Source: Aquimarina sp. MAR_2010_214 (GTDB taxonomy: Bacteria; Bacteroidota; Bacteroidia; Flavobacteriales; Flavobacteriaceae). Taken from it: a stretch of 64,000 nt of DNA. Within the stretch, counting starts at the first letter, position 1, and each line of letters opens with the position of its first letter. Below, in pieces: positions 14,632 to 24,984 of the stretch. The notes under the pieces were generated by a model. The model was given only the letters and a program-made list of their open reading frames with translations, did not search any database and was not told where the DNA came from. Location of the stretch: NCBI RefSeq assembly GCF_002846555.1, contig NZ_PJMS01000001.1:4981501-5045500 (forward strand), given 5' to 3'. The position numbers were made by a program, and so were the translations under genes.

Positions 14632-15111
14632 ATGAAAGCTTTTAATATCATATCATTCTTTATATTATCTCTTCTATATCAAAACGTAACAGCACAGTTA
14701 CAAATTGATTCTTTTGAGTCTATAGAAAACAAAATGACTATTGCCCCAAAACCTTTGGTCGTATTTATTCATACCGATTGGTGCATGTATTGTAAAAATA
14801 TGGAAAATACAACTTTTAAGAATAATGATATTATACAACAATTAAACGAAAATTTCTATTTTGCTTCACTAAATGGAGAAAGTCGTGAAACCATACATTT
14901 CTTAAACAATTCTTTTCGTTTTCAACCTAATGGAAATAAAACCGGAGTGCATCAATTAGCCAGAGAACTTGCTACAGTTAATAACCAAATTGGCTATCCA
15001 ACATTGGCAATTCTAAATCACAAATACGAAATCATATTTCAACAGCAATCTTTTTTAAGTGCTAAAGAACTTATCAAAATATTAAATAAACTTTCTAAAA
15101 ATGATTCATAA
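14632..15111 (+). CDS. Secreted thioredoxin-like protein
   Basis: The 159 residues begin with a signal peptide (about 1-22) and have a thioredoxin-fold core with active site WCMYC (Cys51, Cys54) and the cis-Pro motif GYPT near residue 123. It should act in the periplasm as a thiol oxidoreductase or metallochaperone-like protein. It is 12 bases after the receptor and overlaps the binding-protein gene by 11 bases, so it is part of the import operon. A role in keeping the receptor or binding protein reduced, or in handling thiol-bound metal, is inference only. Confidence 0.85.
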   Translation: MKAFNIISFFILSLLYQNVTAQLQIDSFESIENKMTIAPKPLVVFIHTDWCMYCKNMENTTFKNNDIIQQLNENFYFASLNGESRETIHFLNNSFRFQPNGNKTGVHQLARELATVNNQIGYPTLAILNHKYEIIFQQQSFLSAKELIKILNKLSKNDS

Positions 15112-16018
15112 AAAATTAATGCTATTACTTCTTGTTGTCACGTTTTTCTCCTGTAAAAAAGAAGTAAAAGATAAAAATCAAAAACTACAAGTGGTCACTA
15201 CCACCTCTATGATCACTGATATGGTTAAAAATATAGGTGGAGATCTAATTGAAGTCGAGGGATTAATGGGAAGTGGTGTTGATCCCCATTTATACAAAGC
15301 CAGCGAAGGGGATGTATCCAAATTAGTGAATGCCGATGTAATTTTTTATAACGGTTTACACCTGGAAGGAAAACTGGTAGAAGTATTTGAAAAAATGAAG
15401 CATCAGGATATTAATACCATAGCTATAGGAGAAAGTTTAGACAAAAATACATTAATTGGTTCTGATTATTTTGCTTCTAATTACGATCCCCATATATGGT
15501 TTAGTGTAGAAAACTGGAAAATCATAACGACGTTCGTTACCCGCAAACTCACAGAGATAGATCCAAAAAATGCTGAAGCTTTCAAAGCTAACGGAAAAAC
15601 ATACTTAACTAAGCTTAATGAATTAGAAAACAAATTAAAAAACACCATAGCCACCTTACCAAAAGAAAAGCGAATTCTCGTTACAGCGCACGATGCTTTT
15701 AGTTATTTTGGGAAAGCATATGATTTTGATGTAGTTGGTTTACAGGGGTTGTCTACCGCTACGGAAGCTGGAGTACAGGATGTTCAAAAATTAGCTAACT
15801 TTATTATTGAGAAGAAAGTAAAAGCTATTTTTGTAGAAAGCTCTGTACCTAAACGAACTATTGAAGCCTTACAAGCTGCAGTAAAATCAAAGAATCATGA
15901 AGTAGCCATTGGTGGAACATTGTTTTCTGATGCGCTAGGTAATGCAGAAACAAAAGAAGGTACCTATATTGGGATGTTTGAATACAATGTCAATACTATT
16001 ATAAACGCATTGAAATAA
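15101..16018 (+). CDS. Metal-binding lipoprotein of an ABC importer (TroA/ZnuA type)
   Basis: The 305 residues begin with a lipoprotein signal ending FFSC (Cys18). The cluster A-I metal site can be placed at His63 (DPHLYK), His131 (DPHIWF), His197 (TAHDAF) and Asp277 (LFSDALG). Three His plus one Asp is the TroA/ZnuA pattern; strict Mn proteins such as PsaA have Glu at the third place. There is no His-rich loop of the ZnuA kind. TroA binds both Zn and Mn, so the metal is not settled. The start overlaps the thioredoxin gene; the ATPase is encoded three genes downstream. Confidence 0.9.
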   Translation: MIHKKLMLLLLVVTFFSCKKEVKDKNQKLQVVTTTSMITDMVKNIGGDLIEVEGLMGSGVDPHLYKASEGDVSKLVNADVIFYNGLHLEGKLVEVFEKMKHQDINTIAIGESLDKNTLIGSDYFASNYDPHIWFSVENWKIITTFVTRKLTEIDPKNAEAFKANGKTYLTKLNELENKLKNTIATLPKEKRILVTAHDAFSYFGKAYDFDVVGLQGLSTATEAGVQDVQKLANFIIEKKVKAIFVESSVPKRTIEALQAAVKSKNHEVAIGGTLFSDALGNAETKEGTYIGMFEYNVNTIINALK

Positions 16019-16024
16019 AATAAT

Positions 16025-17320
16025 ATGGCCGATCCAACAGGAATAATTGTTAAAGCAAAAATTAAAGAAACTGCATTAAAAAAGTTTTTAAACACAAAAC
16101 AAAAATCATTTGACGATTTTGATTGGAATACTACTATAAAAAAAGACTACAATACAGAAGAATATAGGACTAATAAAAACAAAAAAACAATTGCTTTTTT
16201 TGCCGAGCTTTTATATTCCTGTAATAATAATTCAGGTGACATTTTTCTATTTCATTACAATAATGAAAAACAAGAATTTTTCTTTTCTTTTATTCTAAAT
16301 CATGAGTATTATAGATACGAAAAATCCTTATTAACTGTATGTAGAGAGTTGGCAAACTATATAGAACCCTTATATGACGCCTATGCATTTATAGTAGCTC
16401 CGGGGCCTCCTGACATCTATAACGCTTTTTCTTTAAAACAAGAGAATATTAAGTTTAAAGCATCTGATATAATTGATAAAAACATAGCCCAAACATATCT
16501 TGATCGGTTTTGGAGTTTTAATGTGAAAGATAATTTTTCTTGTGAACCAGAAGCAGCACTAAGAAAAAGAAATTATTACTATAAGCCCCTAAAAAATGCC
16601 TATAAAAAATTAAAGAAAGAAATAGAAGAAATAGAAAAACCATCAAAAATTAAAAAAGCAACCAAAGATCATCCTTATCATCTTTTCGGTTCATTTTATA
16701 CCTATGATGGTTTTGTTTATGAAAATGAAACAAAAATAGAAAATGCCGACCCTCTTACTTTTAGAGAAATTGGACCTTTTTTTGTTGATAAAAATCATGT
16801 TTTTAAATACTCCGCAATTAATATGGTCGAGCCTTTTGATATAAGAAATTGGAGTAAAATGAAATTTGAGTACAGGATTATAGAAGGAATTGACGGAGCT
16901 ACTTTTACACATCTTAAGAAACAACATCCCAGAGAAGCAATGTATTGGAAAGATAAAAATTATATTTTTTCTAAAAATTATACAGAGTTAAAGAAAATAG
17001 AACCTGCAGATGTAAAAACTTTTGAATACTTAGATTTTGCTTATGGAAAAGATAAAAATCTTGTCTATTGCGCCGATCAAATTATTGACATAGATCCAAA
17101 ACAATATAAATTAAACAAAAATGGATTTATATCCGACAATAAAAATATCTATCACTATGGAAACAAAATCGATCTAGATGCAAATACATTTGAGGTAATA
17201 TTATATGAATCTGAAACAAATCCTTTTTTTGGACCATTTGTATTAGCTGATAAGCATGGAAAGTACAGTTATGAATATAAACATGATCAAAGCACTCAAG
17301 CTCTAGCAATAAACAATTAA
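16025..17320 (+). CDS. DKNYY-family protein inside the metal-import operon
   Basis: A 431-residue protein with no signal peptide. Its C-terminal half repeats the DKNYY theme (DKNHVFKYS, KDKNYIFSKNY, KDKNLVYCADQ, DNKNIYHYGN), and its Lys-rich N-terminal half contains FAELLYSCNNNSGD. DKNYY repeats are thought to form beta-structures of unknown function. It starts six bases after the binding-protein stop, so it is surely co-transcribed with it. It separates the binding protein from its ATPase, which is unusual for such operons. I cannot give a function; it may be an inserted gene. Confidence 0.65.
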   Translation: MADPTGIIVKAKIKETALKKFLNTKQKSFDDFDWNTTIKKDYNTEEYRTNKNKKTIAFFAELLYSCNNNSGDIFLFHYNNEKQEFFFSFILNHEYYRYEKSLLTVCRELANYIEPLYDAYAFIVAPGPPDIYNAFSLKQENIKFKASDIIDKNIAQTYLDRFWSFNVKDNFSCEPEAALRKRNYYYKPLKNAYKKLKKEIEEIEKPSKIKKATKDHPYHLFGSFYTYDGFVYENETKIENADPLTFREIGPFFVDKNHVFKYSAINMVEPFDIRNWSKMKFEYRIIEGIDGATFTHLKKQHPREAMYWKDKNYIFSKNYTELKKIEPADVKTFEYLDFAYGKDKNLVYCADQIIDIDPKQYKLNKNGFISDNKNIYHYGNKIDLDANTFEVILYESETNPFFGPFVLADKHGKYSYEYKHDQSTQALAINN

Positions 17321-17390
17321 AAATGAGACACATGAACCCTATATTTAAAATATGTTTTACTTGGAGTATCATGGTTAAATCAAAAATCAA

Positions 17391-17795
17391 ATGACTGTAG
17401 ATAATATATTAAAAATAATTGATGAAACACATTCATTAGCTATCAAATCAATGATTCAAAAAAACCTTTCGGAATATATGTCTGTATTTGCAGACGAATT
17501 GTTATATAAACAACTTAATGGAAAAATCATTAATAAAAAACAATTAACTAAAGACACAGAAAAATATTTTTCAAGAGTTTTATCTGTTAAAAGTAATTAT
17601 AAGCGTATTAATCATAAACTTGAAACTTGTAAGTTCTCTGAAACTTTAATTCAAGAGGCTGAAGTTACTATTCGTGTTTTTATTTTTTTTAGAAAAAAGT
17701 GGAAAGTTTTACGAAAAGGAATTTATAAATGGTCTATGAGTAATCAAGAGTGGAAAATTACAGAAGTAGATATATTAGAAGAACAAATAAGCTAA
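17391..17795 (+). CDS. Hypothetical protein, NTF2/SnoaL-like fold suspected
   Basis: The 134-residue protein starts with a helical segment and FADELLYKQLNGKIINKKQL, then strands ending in KWSMSNQEWKITEVDIL. That layout is typical of DUF4440/NTF2-like proteins. No catalytic residues can be named. It is 28 bases before the ATPase gene. A 23-codon ORF at 17323-17394 ends at its ATG with an ATGA overlap and might couple its translation to the gene before. Its presence in the operon is unexplained. Confidence 0.55.
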   Translation: MTVDNILKIIDETHSLAIKSMIQKNLSEYMSVFADELLYKQLNGKIINKKQLTKDTEKYFSRVLSVKSNYKRINHKLETCKFSETLIQEAEVTIRVFIFFRKKWKVLRKGIYKWSMSNQEWKITEVDILEEQIS

Positions 17796-17823
17796 ATATT
17801 ATATTATTAAATCTTAGTCTTAC

Positions 17824-18564
17824 ATGAAAGAACAAAAAATCGCAGTTCAGATAGATGATTTAACTGTAGCTTACAATTACAAACCTGTACTATGGGATAT
17901 TGATCTTGCTATACCCGAAGGTGTACTTATGGCTATTGTGGGACCAAACGGAGCAGGAAAATCTACGCTAATAAAATCAATTTTAGATATCATTAAACCC
18001 ATTGCAGGAAGTGTTCAAATCTATGGGAAACCTTATAAGAAACAACGCTCACTGGTAGCTTATGTTCCTCAAAAAGGGAGCGTAGACTGGGATTTCCCGA
18101 CTACTGCACTAGATGTAGTAATGATGGGGACTTATGGGAGTTTGGGATGGATCAAAAGACCTGGACAAAAAGAGAAAAAAGCTGCTCTCGAAGCATTAGA
18201 AAAAGTAGGTATGCTTTCTTTTAAAAGCAGACAGATAAGTCAGCTTTCGGGAGGACAGCAACAACGTATTTTTTTGGCAAGAGCTTTAGTCCAAAATGCA
18301 TCTATCTATTTTATGGATGAGCCTTTTCAAGGTGTTGATGCCACTACAGAAAAGGCAATTATTAATATCTTAAAAGAACTTAGGAAAACTGGTAAAACAG
18401 TAATTGTAGTACATCATGATTTACAAACTGTACCAGAATACTTTGATTGGGTTACTTTCCTTAATGTAAAAAAGATCGCTACCGGACCGGTAAAAGACAT
18501 TTTTAATGATGACAATTTAACCAAAACCTACGGAATTAATTACAAGGTTAGTGTACAACAATAG
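17824..18564 (+). CDS. Metal ABC transporter ATP-binding protein
   Basis: This 246-residue ATPase has Walker [10 protein letters not shown] (40-48), signature LSGGQQQR (141-148), Walker B IYFMDEP (161-167) and switch His198. It clearly belongs to the Mn/Zn/Fe-chelate (MntB/ZnuC/TroB) group. It energises the two permeases encoded downstream at the inner membrane. Between it and the first permease lies a cassette with a four-helix-bundle gene whose left inverted repeat begins one base after this stop codon. Confidence 0.94.
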
Positions 18565-18565
18565 A

Positions 18566-19031
18566 AGTTTATAGTAGTTAGAAAATAAGTTTTTAGTAGG
18601 CAGTGGAAAATTGAATTAATAAAATATGTTATGCAAGAAGTAAAATTTAATTTTGAAGATTTAATTGTATATCAAAAATCTCTTGATTTTGTTGATTTAG
18701 TATACAACACTTGCGACAAATTCCCAAAAAAGGAAACATATATTCTTGCATCTCAATATATTCGAGCAGCAAATCCTATTGCACTAAATATTTCTGAAGG
18801 AGCTGGAGCTTCTGACGCTCAATTTAACCGATATCTTCAATTGGTATTAGATTCTACTCGAGAATGTGTAGTGTGTTCAACAATAGCTACAAGAAGAAAA
18901 TACATTTCGAATGATCAGAATAAAAATGCCAGAATTAAATTAGCTGAGCTTTCAAAAATGATAATCAGTTTACAAAAACATTTAAAAAACAAGAAAAAAA
19001 CTAACCACTAACCACTATTCATCTATAAACT
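18566..19031 (+). mobile_element. Probable S23-gene cassette with 9-bp terminal inverted repeats
   Basis: The segment begins with AGTTTATAG (18566-18574) and ends with the exact inverse CTATAAACT (19023-19031). Next to these ends lie matching TAGTTAG-like motifs inside the left end and CTAACCACTAACCACTA inside the right end. It contains one gene, the four-helix-bundle protein. It fills the space between the ATPase stop and the ATG of the first permease without breaking either frame. No transposase or target-site duplication is visible. That it is mobile is inferred from the repeats and the odd gene content. Confidence 0.5.
18631..19011 (+). CDS. Four-helix-bundle protein (23S rRNA intervening sequence/S23 family)
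   Basis: This 126-residue helical protein shows the S23/IVP pattern: LIVYQKSLDFVDLVY at the start, IRAANPIALNISEGAGA in the middle, and FNRYLQLVLDSTRECV. Family members were first found within 23S rRNA intervening sequences and are related to the Avd accessory protein of diversity-generating retroelements, but no rRNA or reverse transcriptase is near. It sits in a cassette with terminal inverted repeats inside the metal-import operon. Its role in bacteria is not established, and I infer no role in metal transport. Confidence 0.85.
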   Translation: MQEVKFNFEDLIVYQKSLDFVDLVYNTCDKFPKKETYILASQYIRAANPIALNISEGAGASDAQFNRYLQLVLDSTRECVVCSTIATRRKYISNDQNKNARIKLAELSKMIISLQKHLKNKKKTNH

Positions 19032-20165
19032 ATGGATATAAAAGAATACATAGAACTTGTCTTTACAGATTATACCTTACGTACTATTACATTAGGAACT
19101 GCAGTACTCGGTGCTATATGTGGTATGTTAGGTAGTTTTGCTGTATTACGTAAACAAAGCCTATTAGGTGATGCAATTTCTCATGCCGCATTACCCGGTA
19201 TTGCTATCGCTTTTCTAATGATTGGCACAAAAAACAGTTCTGTATTTCTATTAGGAGCATTAATTAGTGGTTTAATTGGTACTTTTTGGATTCGTGGTAT
19301 TACTAGTAAAACACATCTTAAATCTGATACAGCTTTAGGTCTCATATTATCGTTATTCTTTGGATTTGGAATGCTACTATTAACCTATATCCAGAAAATG
19401 CCAAACGCTAATCAGGCCGGTTTAGAAAGTTATCTTTTTGGGCAGGCAGCCACACTTCTAGAGAGTGATGTATGGCTTATGATCATCGTTACCGGAATCA
19501 GCTTGGTCGTTTTATTATTATTCTGGAAAGAACTCAAAATATTATTATTCGATGCTGATTACACTAAAACATTGGGATTTAACACTAGATTCTTAGACAT
19601 TCTTATCACTACATTTATTGTAATTGCTATCGTATTAGGATTACAAACTGTTGGGGTCGTATTAATGAGTGCCATGTTATTGGCTCCAGCGGCAGCGGCC
19701 AGACAATGGACAAACAATCTATCCGTAATGGTTATTTTGGCAGCAATCTTTGGTGCATTCTCTGGAGTCTTCGGGACCGCTATCAGTGCTAGCCATAACA
19801 ACCTATCTACAGGACCTGTAATTGTATTGGTTGCTAGTGTTTTTGTGTTATTTTCTTTTATATTTTCCCCCAGTCGAGGGCTACTATTTAGAGAAATTCG
19901 ATTTAGAAAAAACAGAAATGACCTTCAGTTACATAAAACATTATCTTTTATGTATAACATCGCCAGTACACACGAAAATATTGCTCACCCACATGCAATT
20001 AAAATTTTGAATAACTTTCAAGGGTTTACCAGAAAATCACTTCAAAAACTAGAAGATAAAGATTATGTCAAAATTAACGGTAACATGTGGTCTTTGACTG
20101 AATCTGGATATAAAACTGCTTCCAATTTATATGATCAATTAATCAAAGAAGAAGAAAATGAGTAG
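19032..20165 (+). CDS. Metal ABC transporter permease with winged-helix-like tail
   Basis: The first about 285 residues are a standard ABC-3 permease (ZnuB/MntC type) with GDAISHAALPGI and about eight membrane spans. The remaining 90 residues are an extra cytoplasmic domain: HPHAIKILNNF, then FTRKSLQKLEDKDYVKING, then MWSLTESGYKTASNLY. This reads like a DtxR/MarR-type winged helix with the LTxxG wing. Family members without it are about 280 residues long. Its ATG follows the cassette's right repeat directly. The last 8 bases overlap the second permease gene. The two subunits may form a heterodimeric channel. Confidence 0.9.
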   Translation: MDIKEYIELVFTDYTLRTITLGTAVLGAICGMLGSFAVLRKQSLLGDAISHAALPGIAIAFLMIGTKNSSVFLLGALISGLIGTFWIRGITSKTHLKSDTALGLILSLFFGFGMLLLTYIQKMPNANQAGLESYLFGQAATLLESDVWLMIIVTGISLVVLLLFWKELKILLFDADYTKTLGFNTRFLDILITTFIVIAIVLGLQTVGVVLMSAMLLAPAAAARQWTNNLSVMVILAAIFGAFSGVFGTAISASHNNLSTGPVIVLVASVFVLFSFIFSPSRGLLFREIRFRKNRNDLQLHKTLSFMYNIASTHENIAHPHAIKILNNFQGFTRKSLQKLEDKDYVKINGNMWSLTESGYKTASNLYDQLIKEEENE

Positions 20166-21318
20166 TGCACAGATAGAAATACAACTAATCGCCAGCCTGG
20201 TAGCTATAGCTTGTGCTATCCCGGGTACTTTTTTAGTATTGCGAAAAATGGCATTGATCACCGATGCAATCAGTCATTCTATCTTACCAGGTATTGTAAT
20301 TGGTTTTTTTATTACTGAAGATCTATCATCTCCTTTATTGATTATCCTTGCTGCAGCAAGTGGAGTGATCACCGTCGTATTAGTAGAATTCATTCAAAAG
20401 ACAGGCTTAGTAAAAGAAGATACAGCCATAGGTCTCGTTTTTCCTGCCTTGTTTAGTATTGGGATTATACTTATTGCGCAAAATGCAAATGATGTACACT
20501 TAGATGTTGATGCCGTATTATTAGGAGAACTTGCCTTCGCCCCCTTTGACCGATTACTTATAGGAGGTACAGATGTAGGCCCTAAGTCTTTATGGATCAT
20601 CGGCACTATATTACTAATTACATTAGGGCTGTTATTTGCATTTTTTAAGGAACTAAAAGTAAGCACATTCGATGCAGGTTTAGCCTCTGCTCTTGGATTA
20701 TCTCCTGTAGTTATGCATTATGGACTAATGACTGTTTCATCAATCACTACGGTAGGTGCTTTTGACGCAGTTGGTGCTATCTTAGTCATTGCATTAATGA
20801 TTGCACCTGCAGCTACTGCTTATCTATTAACAAATGACTTAAAAAAAATGCTTCTACTATCTGTTATCTTTGGGGTTAGTAGTGCCATTATAGGGTATTG
20901 GGTAGCACATGCATTAGACACATCTATTTCTGGATCAATGACCACGGTATTAGGATTAGTTTTCTTATTCGCATATCTATTTGCTCCCGACAAAGGCTTG
21001 TTTTCTGTATTATACAGACAAAAACAACAACGTATTGAGGTTTCATTACTTACCTTTCTTCTGCACTTGGGAAACCATCAGGAAGAGGAAGAGCGCCATG
21101 TAAAACATTTAAATGAACATATTAATTGGCAGAAGGTACAATCAAAATCTGTTTTGAATCTGGCACTTAAAAACAATATGATCACTATTAATAATGATAT
21201 TGTTTCTTTAACTAAAAAAGGGAAAAATTTCACAACAGAAGCAATTGATTATATTGTAACTAATAAAAATTCTGAAATCGAAAACATGAAGGATCGGTTT
21301 TTTCTATTTAGAGGTTAA
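20158..21318 (+). CDS. Second metal ABC transporter permease, also with C-terminal tail
   Basis: This 386-residue protein has the ABC-3 permease core to about residue 285 (with TDAISHSILPGIVIGFF) followed by about 100 cytoplasmic residues: EEERHVKHLNEHI, SKSVLNLALKNNMITIN and IVSLTKKGKNFTTE. The tail has the same winged-helix-like layout as its partner but little identity to it. The start codon lies inside the end of the first permease (8-base overlap), which implies translational coupling. It is the last transporter gene; the next gene starts 28 bases later. Confidence 0.9.
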   Translation: MSSAQIEIQLIASLVAIACAIPGTFLVLRKMALITDAISHSILPGIVIGFFITEDLSSPLLIILAAASGVITVVLVEFIQKTGLVKEDTAIGLVFPALFSIGIILIAQNANDVHLDVDAVLLGELAFAPFDRLLIGGTDVGPKSLWIIGTILLITLGLLFAFFKELKVSTFDAGLASALGLSPVVMHYGLMTVSSITTVGAFDAVGAILVIALMIAPAATAYLLTNDLKKMLLLSVIFGVSSAIIGYWVAHALDTSISGSMTTVLGLVFLFAYLFAPDKGLFSVLYRQKQQRIEVSLLTFLLHLGNHQEEEERHVKHLNEHINWQKVQSKSVLNLALKNNMITINNDIVSLTKKGKNFTTEAIDYIVTNKNSEIENMKDRFFLFRG

Positions 21319-21346
21319 AACTTGTATCTTTAAAAGAAAAAGGGAA

Positions 21347-21721
21347 ATGTTCGCATCTTTAAAAAAGAATTTTATATCACTATCTATTTTATTTTTTTTA
21401 GTTAGTTGTACTTCCTATGCTCAGGAAAAACCTGTTCGCTTAGTAGAAGAAAAACAGAAAAAAAGAACAATCATATATATCCAAAATGACACGGATACAG
21501 ATAAGAGTGTATTCTTAAAAGTGAACCCTACAGGGTATCGCAGAAGTGCGCAACGACCAATTATTAAGAACATCCCTGCTAAAAGCAAAATACAAATGCT
21601 GATCCTTATTCCATTAACAGATGTTGAATCTCAGTATTCATATAACCTGATTATAAATGAAGAATTAGAAACTATAGATGTAAAGCACGGTAAAAACTTA
21701 AAAAAGAAAGGTAGTATCTAA
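21347..21721 (+). CDS. Hypothetical secreted or lipoprotein, end of the metal operon
   Basis: A 124-residue protein with a signal sequence ending either at FFLVSC (lipoprotein, Cys21) or at SYAQ (signal peptidase I). The mature part is basic and rich in beta-strand pattern (RTIIYIQNDTDTDKSVFLKV, IKNIPAKSKIQMLILIPL). I recognise no family. It follows the second permease by 28 bases and is itself followed by a perfect 15-bp hairpin, so it is probably the last gene of the operon. A periplasmic accessory role is conceivable but unsupported. Confidence 0.6.
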   Translation: MFASLKKNFISLSILFFLVSCTSYAQEKPVRLVEEKQKKRTIIYIQNDTDTDKSVFLKVNPTGYRRSAQRPIIKNIPAKSKIQMLILIPLTDVESQYSYNLIINEELETIDVKHGKNLKKKGSI

Positions 21722-21725
21722 AAAA

Positions 21726-21759
21726 AGTAAAGCTAAAGTAAAAATACTTTAGCTTTACT
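21726..21759. terminator. Perfect 15-bp hairpin after the metal-import operon
   Basis: Arms AGTAAAGCTAAAGTA (21726-21740) and TACTTTAGCTTTACT (21745-21759) with an AAAA loop, five bases after the last stop codon. A strong T run is lacking, so termination may be partial. Confidence 0.7.
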
Positions 21760-21876
21760 GCTATATTATAATTTCAATACTTCTTTATTTTTTAACATCA
21801 ACTAGTATAAGCAGGGTAAAAAACATTATGATAATATTTATCGCGGTTAATTTAAAAATCTATTGAATATATAATC

Positions 21877-22764
21877 TTATCCTTTAGACTTTAGTAATTT
21901 TTCAATTTCAGATAATCGTTTGGATAAAGATTCTAATTCCTTATTCTCATCTTCTAGTTTTTTAATCTTTTTTTCTTGAGCAATTGTATAAAGGGTTAAC
22001 TCTTCTATCTTTTTAAGAAGATTCATATTCATCTCAGCTAACATCACTCCATTTTGCGCAAATTCTTTTGCTGATGGTATCTCAGGAAGATGACTATTCT
22101 GTATGATATAATTTTCTACTTCTTCTATACTTTTAAGATTATATTCTTTTTTAAATACATAATCCGGTGCAGGTATACTAAGATCAATTTTAACTTCTTT
22201 AGCATGAATTTTTCCATTTACCGTTAGTTTCATATCTGGATTTCTTGTTCCTATTCCTACATTACCATGCATAAATGCAAATTGACTACCATCAAATTGC
22301 ATTTTTGAATACACATTAGTCGATCTATTATATGCTTGAAGACCAACTATACCTGATGGTTGACGTAAATACACTTCAAAACCTTCTGCTCCAGAGTTTG
22401 ATACAACAAAAGACTGACCTGGATTAGTTATCCCTATTCCTACATTACCATTAGATTGAACTAAAAATCTAGGGTTATTATTATTATCTTCAACAATCAA
22501 CGAGGGTGTATTATCTCCTGATGCACTTTGAATTTTTAATCCTTTTCCTTGACCGGCTCCATTTTTTATTATCGCAGCCCAATCTGCATTAGACCCCTGA
22601 TAAATATCTAACTTGGCACTTGGATTATTTCTCCCTATCCCTACATTATTGTTCTTATAATAAAAATCAGCAGCATTACTATTATCTTCTAATTTTACTT
22701 TTTGTTGTGCTTGTACAGACAAAGTGATCCCTAGTAAAGCTATAATTATTATTGTTTTTTTCAT
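21877..22764 (-). CDS. Secreted tail-fibre-like protein with coiled-coil end
   Basis: The 295 residues begin with a signal peptide (ending VQAQ, about 20). They then carry several NVGIGxxNP turns (residues about 40, 107, 171), typical of beta-helical or fibre proteins of Bacteroidota, and end in the conserved block SHLPEIPSAKEFAQNGV followed by a Lys/Glu coiled coil (about 240-292). The C-terminal third is almost identical in DNA to that of the paralogue at 25049-25972. Such proteins probably form trimeric surface fibres. There is no T9SS tail of the usual kind. It lies 33 bases after the T9SS protein gene, so it should be in one operon. Confidence 0.75.
   Translation of the reverse strand: MKKTIIIIALLGITLSVQAQQKVKLEDNSNAADFYYKNNNVGIGRNNPSAKLDIYQGSNADWAAIIKNGAGQGKGLKIQSASGDNTPSLIVEDNNNNPRFLVQSNGNVGIGITNPGQSFVVSNSGAEGFEVYLRQPSGIVGLQAYNRSTNVYSKMQFDGSQFAFMHGNVGIGTRNPDMKLTVNGKIHAKEVKIDLSIPAPDYVFKKEYNLKSIEEVENYIIQNSHLPEIPSAKEFAQNGVMLAEMNMNLLKKIEELTLYTIAQEKKIKKLEDENKELESLSKRLSEIEKLLKSKG
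22000..22232. repeat. Segment shared with the paralogous gene (25181-25413)
   Basis: About 230 bases covering the coiled-coil start, the SHLPEIPSAKEFAQ block and the preceding strand region match 25181-25413 closely. Over the first 110 bases I count only two differences. The 5' halves of the two genes are unlike each other, so the identity is confined to this module. Confidence 0.8.
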
Positions 22765-22797
22765 GTTTATTTTATTTTTTATCGTTAAAAATTTAAA

Positions 22798-24984
22798 TTA
22801 CTCTTTAACAATTATTTTATTAATTACCTTCCCATCCGAAATAGTAACATTTAGAAAATAAATTCCTAAACCTAATGTACTTGTATTGATTTTAATACTA
22901 GCTTCTTTATCATTATTACTTACTAAAACCTCCTGTCCTTGGTTGTTTCTTATTACCCAGCTTAAAACACCTTTTTTATGCACCAGATTTAAGACATCTG
23001 AAATAGGGTTTGGATAAAATAAAAAAGAATCAGATTTTTCTGAATCAGAGTCTTTTTTTGATGAAAAATTACTACTACTTACGCTAGTATTTAATGATTT
23101 TTGAACTTTAACTGGCGTAATAATATCACATGGATCTTTTTGAACCCTAAGAGTTATACTTTTTGTATTACCTGCCGGTTTTATGTGCACATTAGCTTCT
23201 CCTTTTATCAAAATCTCCTTACCAGCAACAATATCATACTTTGGATAAATCCCACCCTGAACTTCATTTACAATAGAAGGATAATCGGCTGATTTAAGCT
23301 CTAATTCATAACAAGCTCCAAATGTTTGAATATTAGAAGATGATTTTGACGGAATTACATCAACATGCTTATTCACCCTACTTGCATATAATGATTGTCT
23401 ATCTATAAGAGAATATGGACATCCTCCATATTTTTTGACACCTTTTTGAAATCTGCAAAAATCTTCATGATCCGGCACTCCATCTCCATCAGAATCTATC
23501 CCATTAGAATTCTCATCATTTAAATCTCCTTTAACAATTCTACTACCATAAATACTGCCACCATAACTACCAAATCCATATATATCAACAACAGTAACTT
23601 CATAGGTTTTAGCGTTTAACACATCTTTTGGTTTTACTTTAATCAAATCACCAAAAAAATTATCCCCATTTGTAGAAAGCTTCAATTTAAAGTTTACATC
23701 ATAAGTTTTTGAAATTCTTGAAATTCCATATTTACGCCTTTTTTCTCCATATTCTGTAAAATAAATCCCATCTGGTGTATCAATTGTCATTCCTACATTT
23801 GTATTGGCATCTTTCCCAAAAAGATCATCAAAACTTTTCCCTAGGCTTTTCAGCAAACCTTTTAATCCTTCTGAAATAAGTCTATTTATATCTTTTGGTT
23901 TTGGATTATAAGTGCTTACATAAAAATAAATTTCATAATTAAATGAGCTTGCATCAAATGGAAATGTCTCAAAAACATTACTAACCTCCTCAATACCACT
24001 ATATACAGTATTCCCATTAATATCAATAACTCTATTATAGCCATTGTCTTTTATTAAAAAATTATGGGTAAATACAGGAGGAGAAGGATACTCTATAGGG
24101 TATTTAATAACTACAGTCCTCCCCATTTCTAAATACTTGCAAAAATTATCTCTTTTCCATGTAGTAATTCCTAAAAACTTCTTCTTCTTTTGTGATTTTA
24201 CTTTAGCATAGACAGAAGAAAACAATAAATAATTCTGGTTAGAGAATTTTGTTTTAATTCTTCTATCGGAGTCAATATAATTATTACAAGTTTCAGAACT
24301 CCCTGGAAGTAATGATTCAAAAAAACCAGAATCATCAAAATTGCAATTTTCTAAAGTGTAAGGAGGTGCATAGATATCGGTATTGATTGATTTAGCATCA
24401 AAATTTTCAGGAACAACCGAGGTTTTATTATTAATAGAATTTTGATAATCAAAACTAAAAAAACTCACATTATCACCTAAGTCATATACTTTACTATTAT
24501 TTATCGTTTTAGACGGGAGATTACTATATGATTTTGCTAAGTTTTTTTTTGCACTTACTTTTTGCTTCATATCACCATTGATATCATTAGTAAAATACAA
24601 ACCATTGGATTCATATTTATAAACATTTCCGCCTACCACAATCTCTCTATTATAATTAAGCAAACGTGCCAACCTATCGTCTCCAATTAAAGGATCTTCT
24701 TCTATATTTCCATCTGGAATATCTATGAGATTTTGTTTATAGTATTCTAACTTTTTAGCTTCATTTAACAAACTTTCGAAACCTTTACTTTCTAAAGATG
24801 AAACCACATTAATCAACTGATCTTCTGAATCATCAGAGGTATGAAATTTCATAAAATCTTTCAAGTGTTTTTCTGAGCTAAAAATCAATCTTTTATTTTT
24901 CGTATCCACATTAGGAGTATCTACTTGAGAGTTCCCTAAAAATGATAACCCCATAAAGCTTACTAATAAAATAATTTTCTTCAT
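22798..24984 (-). CDS. Large secreted protein with TSP3-like repeat and T9SS sorting tail
   Basis: A 728-residue protein with a signal peptide (ending LGNSQ, 20). It has a long middle region of unknown fold, a calcium-binding thrombospondin-type-3-like repeat DSDGDGVPDHEDFC at about residue 497, and a C-terminal type A sorting domain (SFLFYPNPISDVLNLV to KIIVKE, last about 75). It is therefore exported by the type IX secretion system and probably attached to the cell surface. No enzyme motif is seen. It lies between two fibre-like paralogues in the same orientation (64 and 33 base gaps), which suggests that the three proteins work together on the surface. Confidence 0.8.
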   Translation of the reverse strand: MKKIILLVSFMGLSFLGNSQVDTPNVDTKNKRLIFSSEKHLKDFMKFHTSDDSEDQLINVVSSLESKGFESLLNEAKKLEYYKQNLIDIPDGNIEEDPLIGDDRLARLLNYNREIVVGGNVYKYESNGLYFTNDINGDMKQKVSAKKNLAKSYSNLPSKTINNSKVYDLGDNVSFFSFDYQNSINNKTSVVPENFDAKSINTDIYAPPYTLENCNFDDSGFFESLLPGSSETCNNYIDSDRRIKTKFSNQNYLLFSSVYAKVKSQKKKKFLGITTWKRDNFCKYLEMGRTVVIKYPIEYPSPPVFTHNFLIKDNGYNRVIDINGNTVYSGIEEVSNVFETFPFDASSFNYEIYFYVSTYNPKPKDINRLISEGLKGLLKSLGKSFDDLFGKDANTNVGMTIDTPDGIYFTEYGEKRRKYGISRISKTYDVNFKLKLSTNGDNFFGDLIKVKPKDVLNAKTYEVTVVDIYGFGSYGGSIYGSRIVKGDLNDENSNGIDSDGDGVPDHEDFCRFQKGVKKYGGCPYSLIDRQSLYASRVNKHVDVIPSKSSSNIQTFGACYELELKSADYPSIVNEVQGGIYPKYDIVAGKEILIKGEANVHIKPAGNTKSITLRVQKDPCDIITPVKVQKSLNTSVSSSNFSSKKDSDSEKSDSFLFYPNPISDVLNLVHKKGVLSWVIRNNQGQEVLVSNNDKEASIKINTSTLGLGIYFLNVTISDGKVINKIIVKE

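Follow-up and report, generated by a model that had tools for sequence, protein, structure and literature searches.

The window, a 64,000-nucleotide stretch of the genome of Aquimarina sp. MAR_2010_214, contains a metal-transport operon with a short element between two of its genes, all on the forward (+) strand. The upstream gene (17824..18564) encodes a metal ABC transporter ATPase of the ZnuC/MntA type and the downstream gene (19032..20165) an ABC-3 family metal permease, both assigned by profile match. The element has a total length of 466 bp and consists of a 5' arm (18566..18606), a gene for a 126-aa S23 (23S_rRNA_IVP) four-helix-bundle protein (18631..19011), and a 3' arm (19001..19031). 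The S23 protein matches PF05635 with 86.2 bits (cut-off 33.8) and TIGR02436 with 84.6 bits (cut-off 24), and its relatives of solved structure are 2gsc and 2rld, with five chains listed for each.

The 5' arm starts with AGTTTATAG and is an array of degenerate heptamers containing few C (best period 7, weak at an identity of 0.48). The 3' arm is composed of the heptamers CTAACCA, CTAACCA, CTATTCA and TCTATAA followed by ACT, with a best period of 7 at an identity of 0.67. It shares bases with the last S23 codons and ends at the permease ATG. AGTTTATAG at 18566-18574 and CTATAAACT at 19023-19031 form an exact 9-bp inverted repeat, and the S23 gene is the single ORF between these ends. The ATPase stop codon occupies 18562-18564, 1 bp before the element. 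The sequence-only reading had described a cassette with exact 9-bp inverted ends around one S23 gene, placed precisely between the ATPase stop and the permease ATG. The coordinates (18564 and 19032) and the two profile matches bear out both statements. This copy sits between two protein genes and not inside a 23S rRNA gene; an Rfam scan of window positions 15000-23000 gave no matches. By eye, any target duplication at the znu site would be at most 2 bp, and there is no recent insertion from which to read it.

Two further ORFs of 431 aa and 134 aa lie at window positions 16025-17795, between the ZnuA-like binding protein and the ATPase; a Pfam scan of the 134-aa ORF returned no match. In genome G015 (locus L036), a second S23 gene is located immediately before the ATPase, after the apparent end of the binding protein, so that S23 genes stand on both sides of the ATPase.

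The arms of the window

On its own, the inverted repeat of the window is a weak feature. Of 5000 first-order Markov shuffles, 3.1% contained an exact inverted repeat of at least 9 bp in the outer 40 + 40 bases. When periods 4-12 were compared, period 7 gave the best fit on both sides. The arm-arm RNA duplex reaches -16.7 kcal/mol, which 6 of 169 foreign 3' arms equal or surpass. The plain complementarity score of 9 is equalled or beaten by 44 of the 169 foreign arms, and 108 of them are as good if 110 nt are searched. With the measure used for the class test, the duplex (-22.9) falls short of the mean for non-self pairs of the class. The arms alone constitute moderate evidence and show a moderate fit to the class described below; the finding stands above chance because of the S23 element class, not because of the window's arms by themselves. 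The ends are not a classical terminal inverted repeat (TIR) but the outer letters of degenerate heptamer arrays.

S23 copies in the same genome

The existence of further S23 copies, as had been suggested, was confirmed by eight PF05635 matches in the 5.98-Mb genome, seven of which are over the cut-off. From their ORFs, we take each of the seven longer copies to lie between genes of an operon, the places being hisH/hisA, fadB/fadA, downstream of fadA, thiH/thiG, RND pump/outer-membrane factor, mraY/murD, and the window's operon. Judged by eye, each copy carries its own end arrays of degenerate heptamers. Examples are AGTATTG units versus CTCAATA units, and AAATCGT units following the S23 gene in mraY/murD. 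The absence of other copies with similar ends had been named as an argument against mobility; ends of the same kind do exist at other copies, with a different sequence.

The end pattern of the window, at its spacing, has one occurrence in the genome, namely the window's own, and no exact-TIR copies besides it were found there. The proposed genome search for units with this end sequence accordingly leads to one place only. Among 170 elements compared, close kin of the window's S23 (72-78%) occur only in the znu operon, at the same seam and, in G015, additionally at the adjacent one; the closest sequence after these has 44%. In G261, the one same-genome pair that was followed is 68.5% identical in the gene and unalignable beyond it. 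The unique end sequence, the differing arrays, and the restriction of close kin to the znu operon leave a MITE-like unit with fixed TIRs unsupported. The same applies to the earlier proposal of a non-autonomous unit that jumps with help from elsewhere, given that the ends are unique and the arrays differ among S23 genes of the same genome. The element in the window looks like an old, site-bound resident of sporadic presence rather than a recent copy.

Arm periodicity and pairing in Bacteroidota

Within the genus, 49 of 52 genomes contain a PF05635 match, 48 over the cut-off. The genus loci comprised the best 30 by score, the loci of the window's genome, those of the znu operon, and another 100 listed stretches. 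After length filters 141 elements were obtained, and with 30 loci from a phylum search the set amounted to 170 elements. In a sample of 247 Bacteroidota genomes, 193 had a PF05635 match (183 over the cut-off), compared to none of 14 control genomes.

In the outer 110 nt of the 282 arms belonging to the 141 elements, the best period is 7 in 177 and 8 in 47, compared to 39 and 29 in the shuffled control. Arm autocorrelation in these elements is raised at lags 7, 14 and 21. Strong 7/8 periodicity was detected in 52 of 340 S23-adjacent arms versus 23 of 3357 stretches taken from elsewhere in these loci, and of the eight lags tested in the 340 arms, strong periodicity was absent at 4, 5, 6, 9, 10 and 11. 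A maximum-sum periodic run was present in 157 of the 340 arms and in none of 340 shuffled ones, with a median length of 34 nt, corresponding to 4.6 units; the other 183 arms have no clear run. Such a run is found in most members of 21 of 29 protein clusters. The unit sequences vary from element to element across the Bacteroidota class. About four positions per unit are conserved and three are variable (95 and 100 arms), a pattern that is partly selection bias, because a phase-permuted control comes close. An excess of G over C before the S23 gene together with C over G after it characterises 115 of the 170 elements, and the remaining states account for 39, 13 and 3. Degenerate arms of 7-nt, sometimes 8-nt, units are common around Bacteroidota S23 genes.

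As a class, the two arms of an element are complementary. For 43 cluster representatives, the 5' arm scores 13.77 against the reverse complement of its own 3' arm, while permuted pairing yields 9.54 (s.d. 0.34) and at most 11.43 in 10000 permutations. Over the 170 elements, the mean inverted fit is 14.57 and the mean direct fit 10.64; the inverted fit is the better one in 135, the direct fit in 31 (clearly in 13), and 4 tie. The RNA duplexes of 29 representatives average -31.8 kcal/mol for own arms versus -24.2 kcal/mol for non-self arms, with -28.9 kcal/mol as the best of 20000 permutations, and only 21% of these 29 have their best-pairing 3' arm within the same element. Pairing depends mostly on the consensus unit, since shuffling the unit order barely lowers the score (14.98 to 14.11 in 126 elements). 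In same-site orthologues with 60-75% gene identity, own arms score 15.72 versus 13.77 for swapped arms (260 pairs), an advantage which nearly vanishes above 75% gene identity. A test for the paired arms of a site changing in concert did not reach significance (p = 0.14, 22 sites).

Selection, orientation and movement

The S23 gene is under strong purifying selection, with a median dN/dS of 0.096 (quartiles 0.075 and 0.124, 69 pairs). It is co-directional with both neighbours in 161 of 170 elements, many of which are mutual orthologues, and directed against both in 1. There are 3' arms that terminate at a start codon or close to one.

Between S23 elements located at different sites, the arms are the more similar the higher the S23 identity, from 10.1 at 30-50% through 11.0 in the 50s, 13.3 in the 60s and 15.0 in the 70s to 16.5 at 80% or more (16 pairs), the random value being 10.3 (s.d. 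3.6). In the 39 different-site pairs whose DNA is at least 75% identical, the longest shared arm word is 11 versus 8 at random, and strict alignment extends a median of 14 and 4 bases past the gene. When the G001 element with its flanks served as query, the second-place match covered only base 560 to 996. In genomes lacking this element, the orthologous flanks match as far as base 559 and resume at 973-999. That related S23 genes carry related arms even where their sites differ indicates that gene and arms moved together, long ago. Movement of the element is supported for the past alone; in the present day it may still occur.

Filled and empty sites

The suggested comparison with close relatives showed that the 466 bp are missing from the same operon in G001, G002, G004, G026 and G029. 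The distance from the last ATPase codon to the permease ATG is 8-12 bp in these five genomes and 470 bp in the window, both measured with the stop codon included. The survey of this site covered 50 loci from 52 genomes. An S23 gene fills it in seven (G000, G023, G044, G015, G021, G018 and G007), with a reading frame shortened to 102 aa in G044, and is decayed in two (G028, G050). Five loci (G006, G014, G013, G005, G035) were classed as arms or arrays without S23, and G005 and G035 have another sequence between the arms. No element is present in 33, including nine with gaps of 35-79 bp that could be old scars, and 3 are unresolved. Presence of the gene at this site in all relatives had been named as evidence against mobility; orthologues are found in some relatives and are missing from others. 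The arms of the S23 elements at this site in other relatives differ from those of the window. A permease tree of 46 rows, of which 33 are empty, requires at least 11 state changes. Shuffling gave a mean of 12.6 changes and a count as low in 17 of 200 cases. These changes fit repeated loss and site-bound exchange alike.

Other sites show comparable states. At mraY/murD, where 30 of 51 matching genomes were looked at, 4 are filled, 19 have a seam of 6-7 bp (for example TAGTATG), and 7 have other spacers, some of them scar-like. In the filled examples L348, L362, L369 and L373, the 3' arm seems to provide murD with a new GTG start and a few codons. The RND/outer-membrane factor site is filled in 4 of 12 genomes, with L389 and L390 left out. 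The L065 site is filled in 3 of 12, and G023 retains both arms there without the gene. The seam at the L140 site (L425, L431-L433 and L426-L428) is a hot spot for insertions. It holds S23 in some genomes and spacers of 84-90 bp in others, some with inverted GGAATCC-type repeats, and G000, G026 and G029 carry unrelated longer inserts of 666-1140 bp.

S23 elements outside Bacteroidota

Plasmid records were matched by the window's S23 protein (10 records) and by an Azospirillum S23 protein (42 records). Eighteen hand-chosen plasmid places and 3 loci picked for their TAACTGA arrays yielded 21 non-Bacteroidota elements. Among their 42 arms, the best period is 7 in 26 and 8 in 9. Self pairing amounts to 17.6 versus 9.35 (s.d. 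0.88). An arm finds its best match within its own element in 48% of the 21, and about nine of the 21 elements pair weakly or not at all. Heptamer-armed S23 elements also occur in Cyanobacteriota and Vibrio; phages gave no S23 matches. Judged by eye, the plasmid arrays at L398, L403 and L404 are direct and not inverted, and no arms were seen around the S23 genes of plasmid loci L401 and L405. Four of the 18 elements on plasmids run antisense to the genes on either side. At L395, L396 and L398, S23 lies in CRISPR operons of cyanobacterial plasmids (cas6/cas4 twice, cas10/cmr3).

The Azospirillum lipoferum 4B plasmid p2 (L397) carries an S23 gene embedded in a 23S rRNA gene, which Rfam identifies as LSU with 2549 bits. 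Its arms are heptameric, and it is the sole rRNA-located case in this analysis. The gene table, which is incomplete, has no feature at this place. In Coxiella, the intervening sequence (IVS) of the 23S rRNA gene is excised by RNase III (PMC4990558). According to the part of that source available here, the Coxiella IVS has in common with the element of the window an S23 ORF, ends that may pair, and a similar total length (428 nt compared to 466 bp). Its stem comprises 28 bp with one mismatch and one bulge, and no heptamers are described in that part. The window's copy differs from the rRNA IVSs in its position between two protein genes and in its arms, which are degenerate and partly paired. 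Homology of the window's S23 protein to Avd of diversity-generating retroelements is weak (NF033474, 25.5 bits, below the cut-off of 80), as is homology to bAvd (PF22296, 27.5 bits, below the cut-off of 40).

TAACTGA arrays

Heptanucleotide repeats are also known from the cyanobacterial STRRs and from the P6b repeats of the tRNA-Leu intron. In the accessible part of MacGregor 2015 (PMC4679880), TAACTGA arrays are described as standing in forward orientation ahead of start codons and in reverse orientation behind stop codons; translational roles were suggested for them, and no evident mechanism was seen for their spread. The terms S23, four helix and intervening have no occurrence in the main text of that paper (PMC4679880), and literature searches in open-access PMC listed no paper whose title or abstract opening links S23 to heptamers.

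At least 111 loci have four or more TAACTGA units. Among the loci listed, an S23 ORF is present in 3, with the array beside the gene (a Nostocales MAG, a Microcystis MAG and Vibrio salinus), and absent in 108. The idea that TAACTGA arrays generally hold S23 was rejected on this count (3 of 111 among the loci listed). The 163 listed runs of at least two units include 6 inverted pairs and 1 everted pair. Of 138 listed arrays of at least three units, 52 end within 80 nt before a start and 40 stand reversed after a stop, compared to 13 and 4 in the opposite placements; these classes may overlap, and many arrays fall into none. Loci L188-L298 are TAACTGA arrays, nearly all without S23 and with marked polarity. 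TAACTGA repeats share tandem heptamers in gene seams and a fixed polarity with the S23 elements as a class. They differ in the absence of an S23 ORF at 108 of the 111 listed loci, and their unit sequence is not that of the window. Since the polarity agrees with that of S23 arms, gene-free TAACTGA arrays may be what is left of S23 elements or may be related to them.

Interpretation and alternatives

The insert is considered somewhat probable to be a member of a widespread S23 family, of the same kind as the 23S rRNA IVSs, whose arms pair in the transcript. Computed support is available for the identity of the S23 gene, for the periodicity and complementarity of the arms as a class, for purifying selection, for long-term co-movement of arms and S23, and for empty, filled and arm-only states of one site.

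One alternative, a non-autonomous MITE-like DNA transposon with TIRs cut by a transposase acting in trans, would share small size, inverted ends and empty sites in relatives with known MITEs and non-autonomous IS elements, and similar units do occur at different sites. It is nevertheless held to be very unlikely: the end sequence has a single occurrence in the genome, arms differ among elements of one genome and S23 copies share no TIR sequence, recent twin copies were not seen, and the identity of the same-genome pair is confined to the gene. Strong purifying selection on S23 and the strong bias towards sense orientation also argue against it. Selection and orientation point in the other direction for a domesticated RNA regulator, in which S23 and its arms would be kept in the host operon to control the downstream gene. 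The low dN/dS, the co-directional placement, the 3' arms at or near start codons, and the translational roles that the available part of MacGregor 2015 suggests for TAACTGA arrays (PMC4679880) are in line with such a role. The sporadic same-site presence (33 empty rows and at least 11 state changes in the 46-row tree), the several unrelated host operons, and the differing arms at the same site make this role quite unlikely.

Another possibility is that S23 is an ordinary, horizontally spread operon gene and that the arms are slippage-prone short tandem repeats of the seams it occupies. Slippage would account for changes in unit number between near relatives (L001/L129, L058/L094), for long one-sided arrays (L068, L085, L086, L087), for the heptamer arrays without S23 at 108 of the 111 listed TAACTGA loci, and for the better direct fit in 31 of 170 elements. 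It does not predict arrays that, as a class, are matched and inverted across the gene, a period confined to 7 and 8 when eight lags are compared, or the expected polarity in both arms (115 of 170). Moreover, such arrays are seldom seen in other parts of these loci (23 of 3357), and arms follow S23 to other sites. This explanation is unlikely on balance and still deserves some weight.

The plan of the family comprises a C-poor 5' array of degenerate 7-8 nt repeats, the S23 gene, and a G-poor, mostly complementary 3' array. Such elements sit in transcribed seams, between two cistrons or in rRNA, mostly in sense orientation, and are presumably transcribed together with the host operon. Within the RNA, the arms could anneal to a stem around S23, which RNase III may cut by analogy with the rRNA IVSs, the Coxiella IVS being the model for this step. 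An RNase III-cuttable stem would mean that insertion between cistrons costs little. The S23 protein may bind the arms; an oligomer may recognise the repeat spacing and help the element to persist or spread. Loss would be either clean or by internal deletion that leaves the arms behind. To our knowledge, no function has been established for S23 or its four-helix bundle.

A bolder version, speculative and rather unlikely, would make S23 a dedicated reader, or even maker, of 7-8 nt arrays. Its oligomer would bind about five units per arm and guide the renewal of the arms on moving, and the arrays of Cyanobacteria, Beggiatoaceae and Bacteroidota would be footprints of one ancient S23 family, equally at home in rRNA and operons.

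Heptamer arms whose sequence changes and which stay paired as a class provide a second diagnostic part beside the S23 gene. They tie the operon copies of S23 to the rRNA intervening sequences, and through them what S23 does can be put directly to the test. The recurrence of this plan in several phyla joins insertions and repeat arrays that have so far been treated separately. S23 elements also offer a testable origin for the heptamer arrays described in the available part of MacGregor 2015 (PMC4679880). A further candidate comes from Flavobacterium columnare, for which Table 5 of PMC5524665 places a four helix bundle gene under phage elements, with guanylate kinase and nicotinic acid mononucleotide adenylyltransferase as its neighbours. 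As far as this table goes, the gene may be an S23 element of the window's kind.
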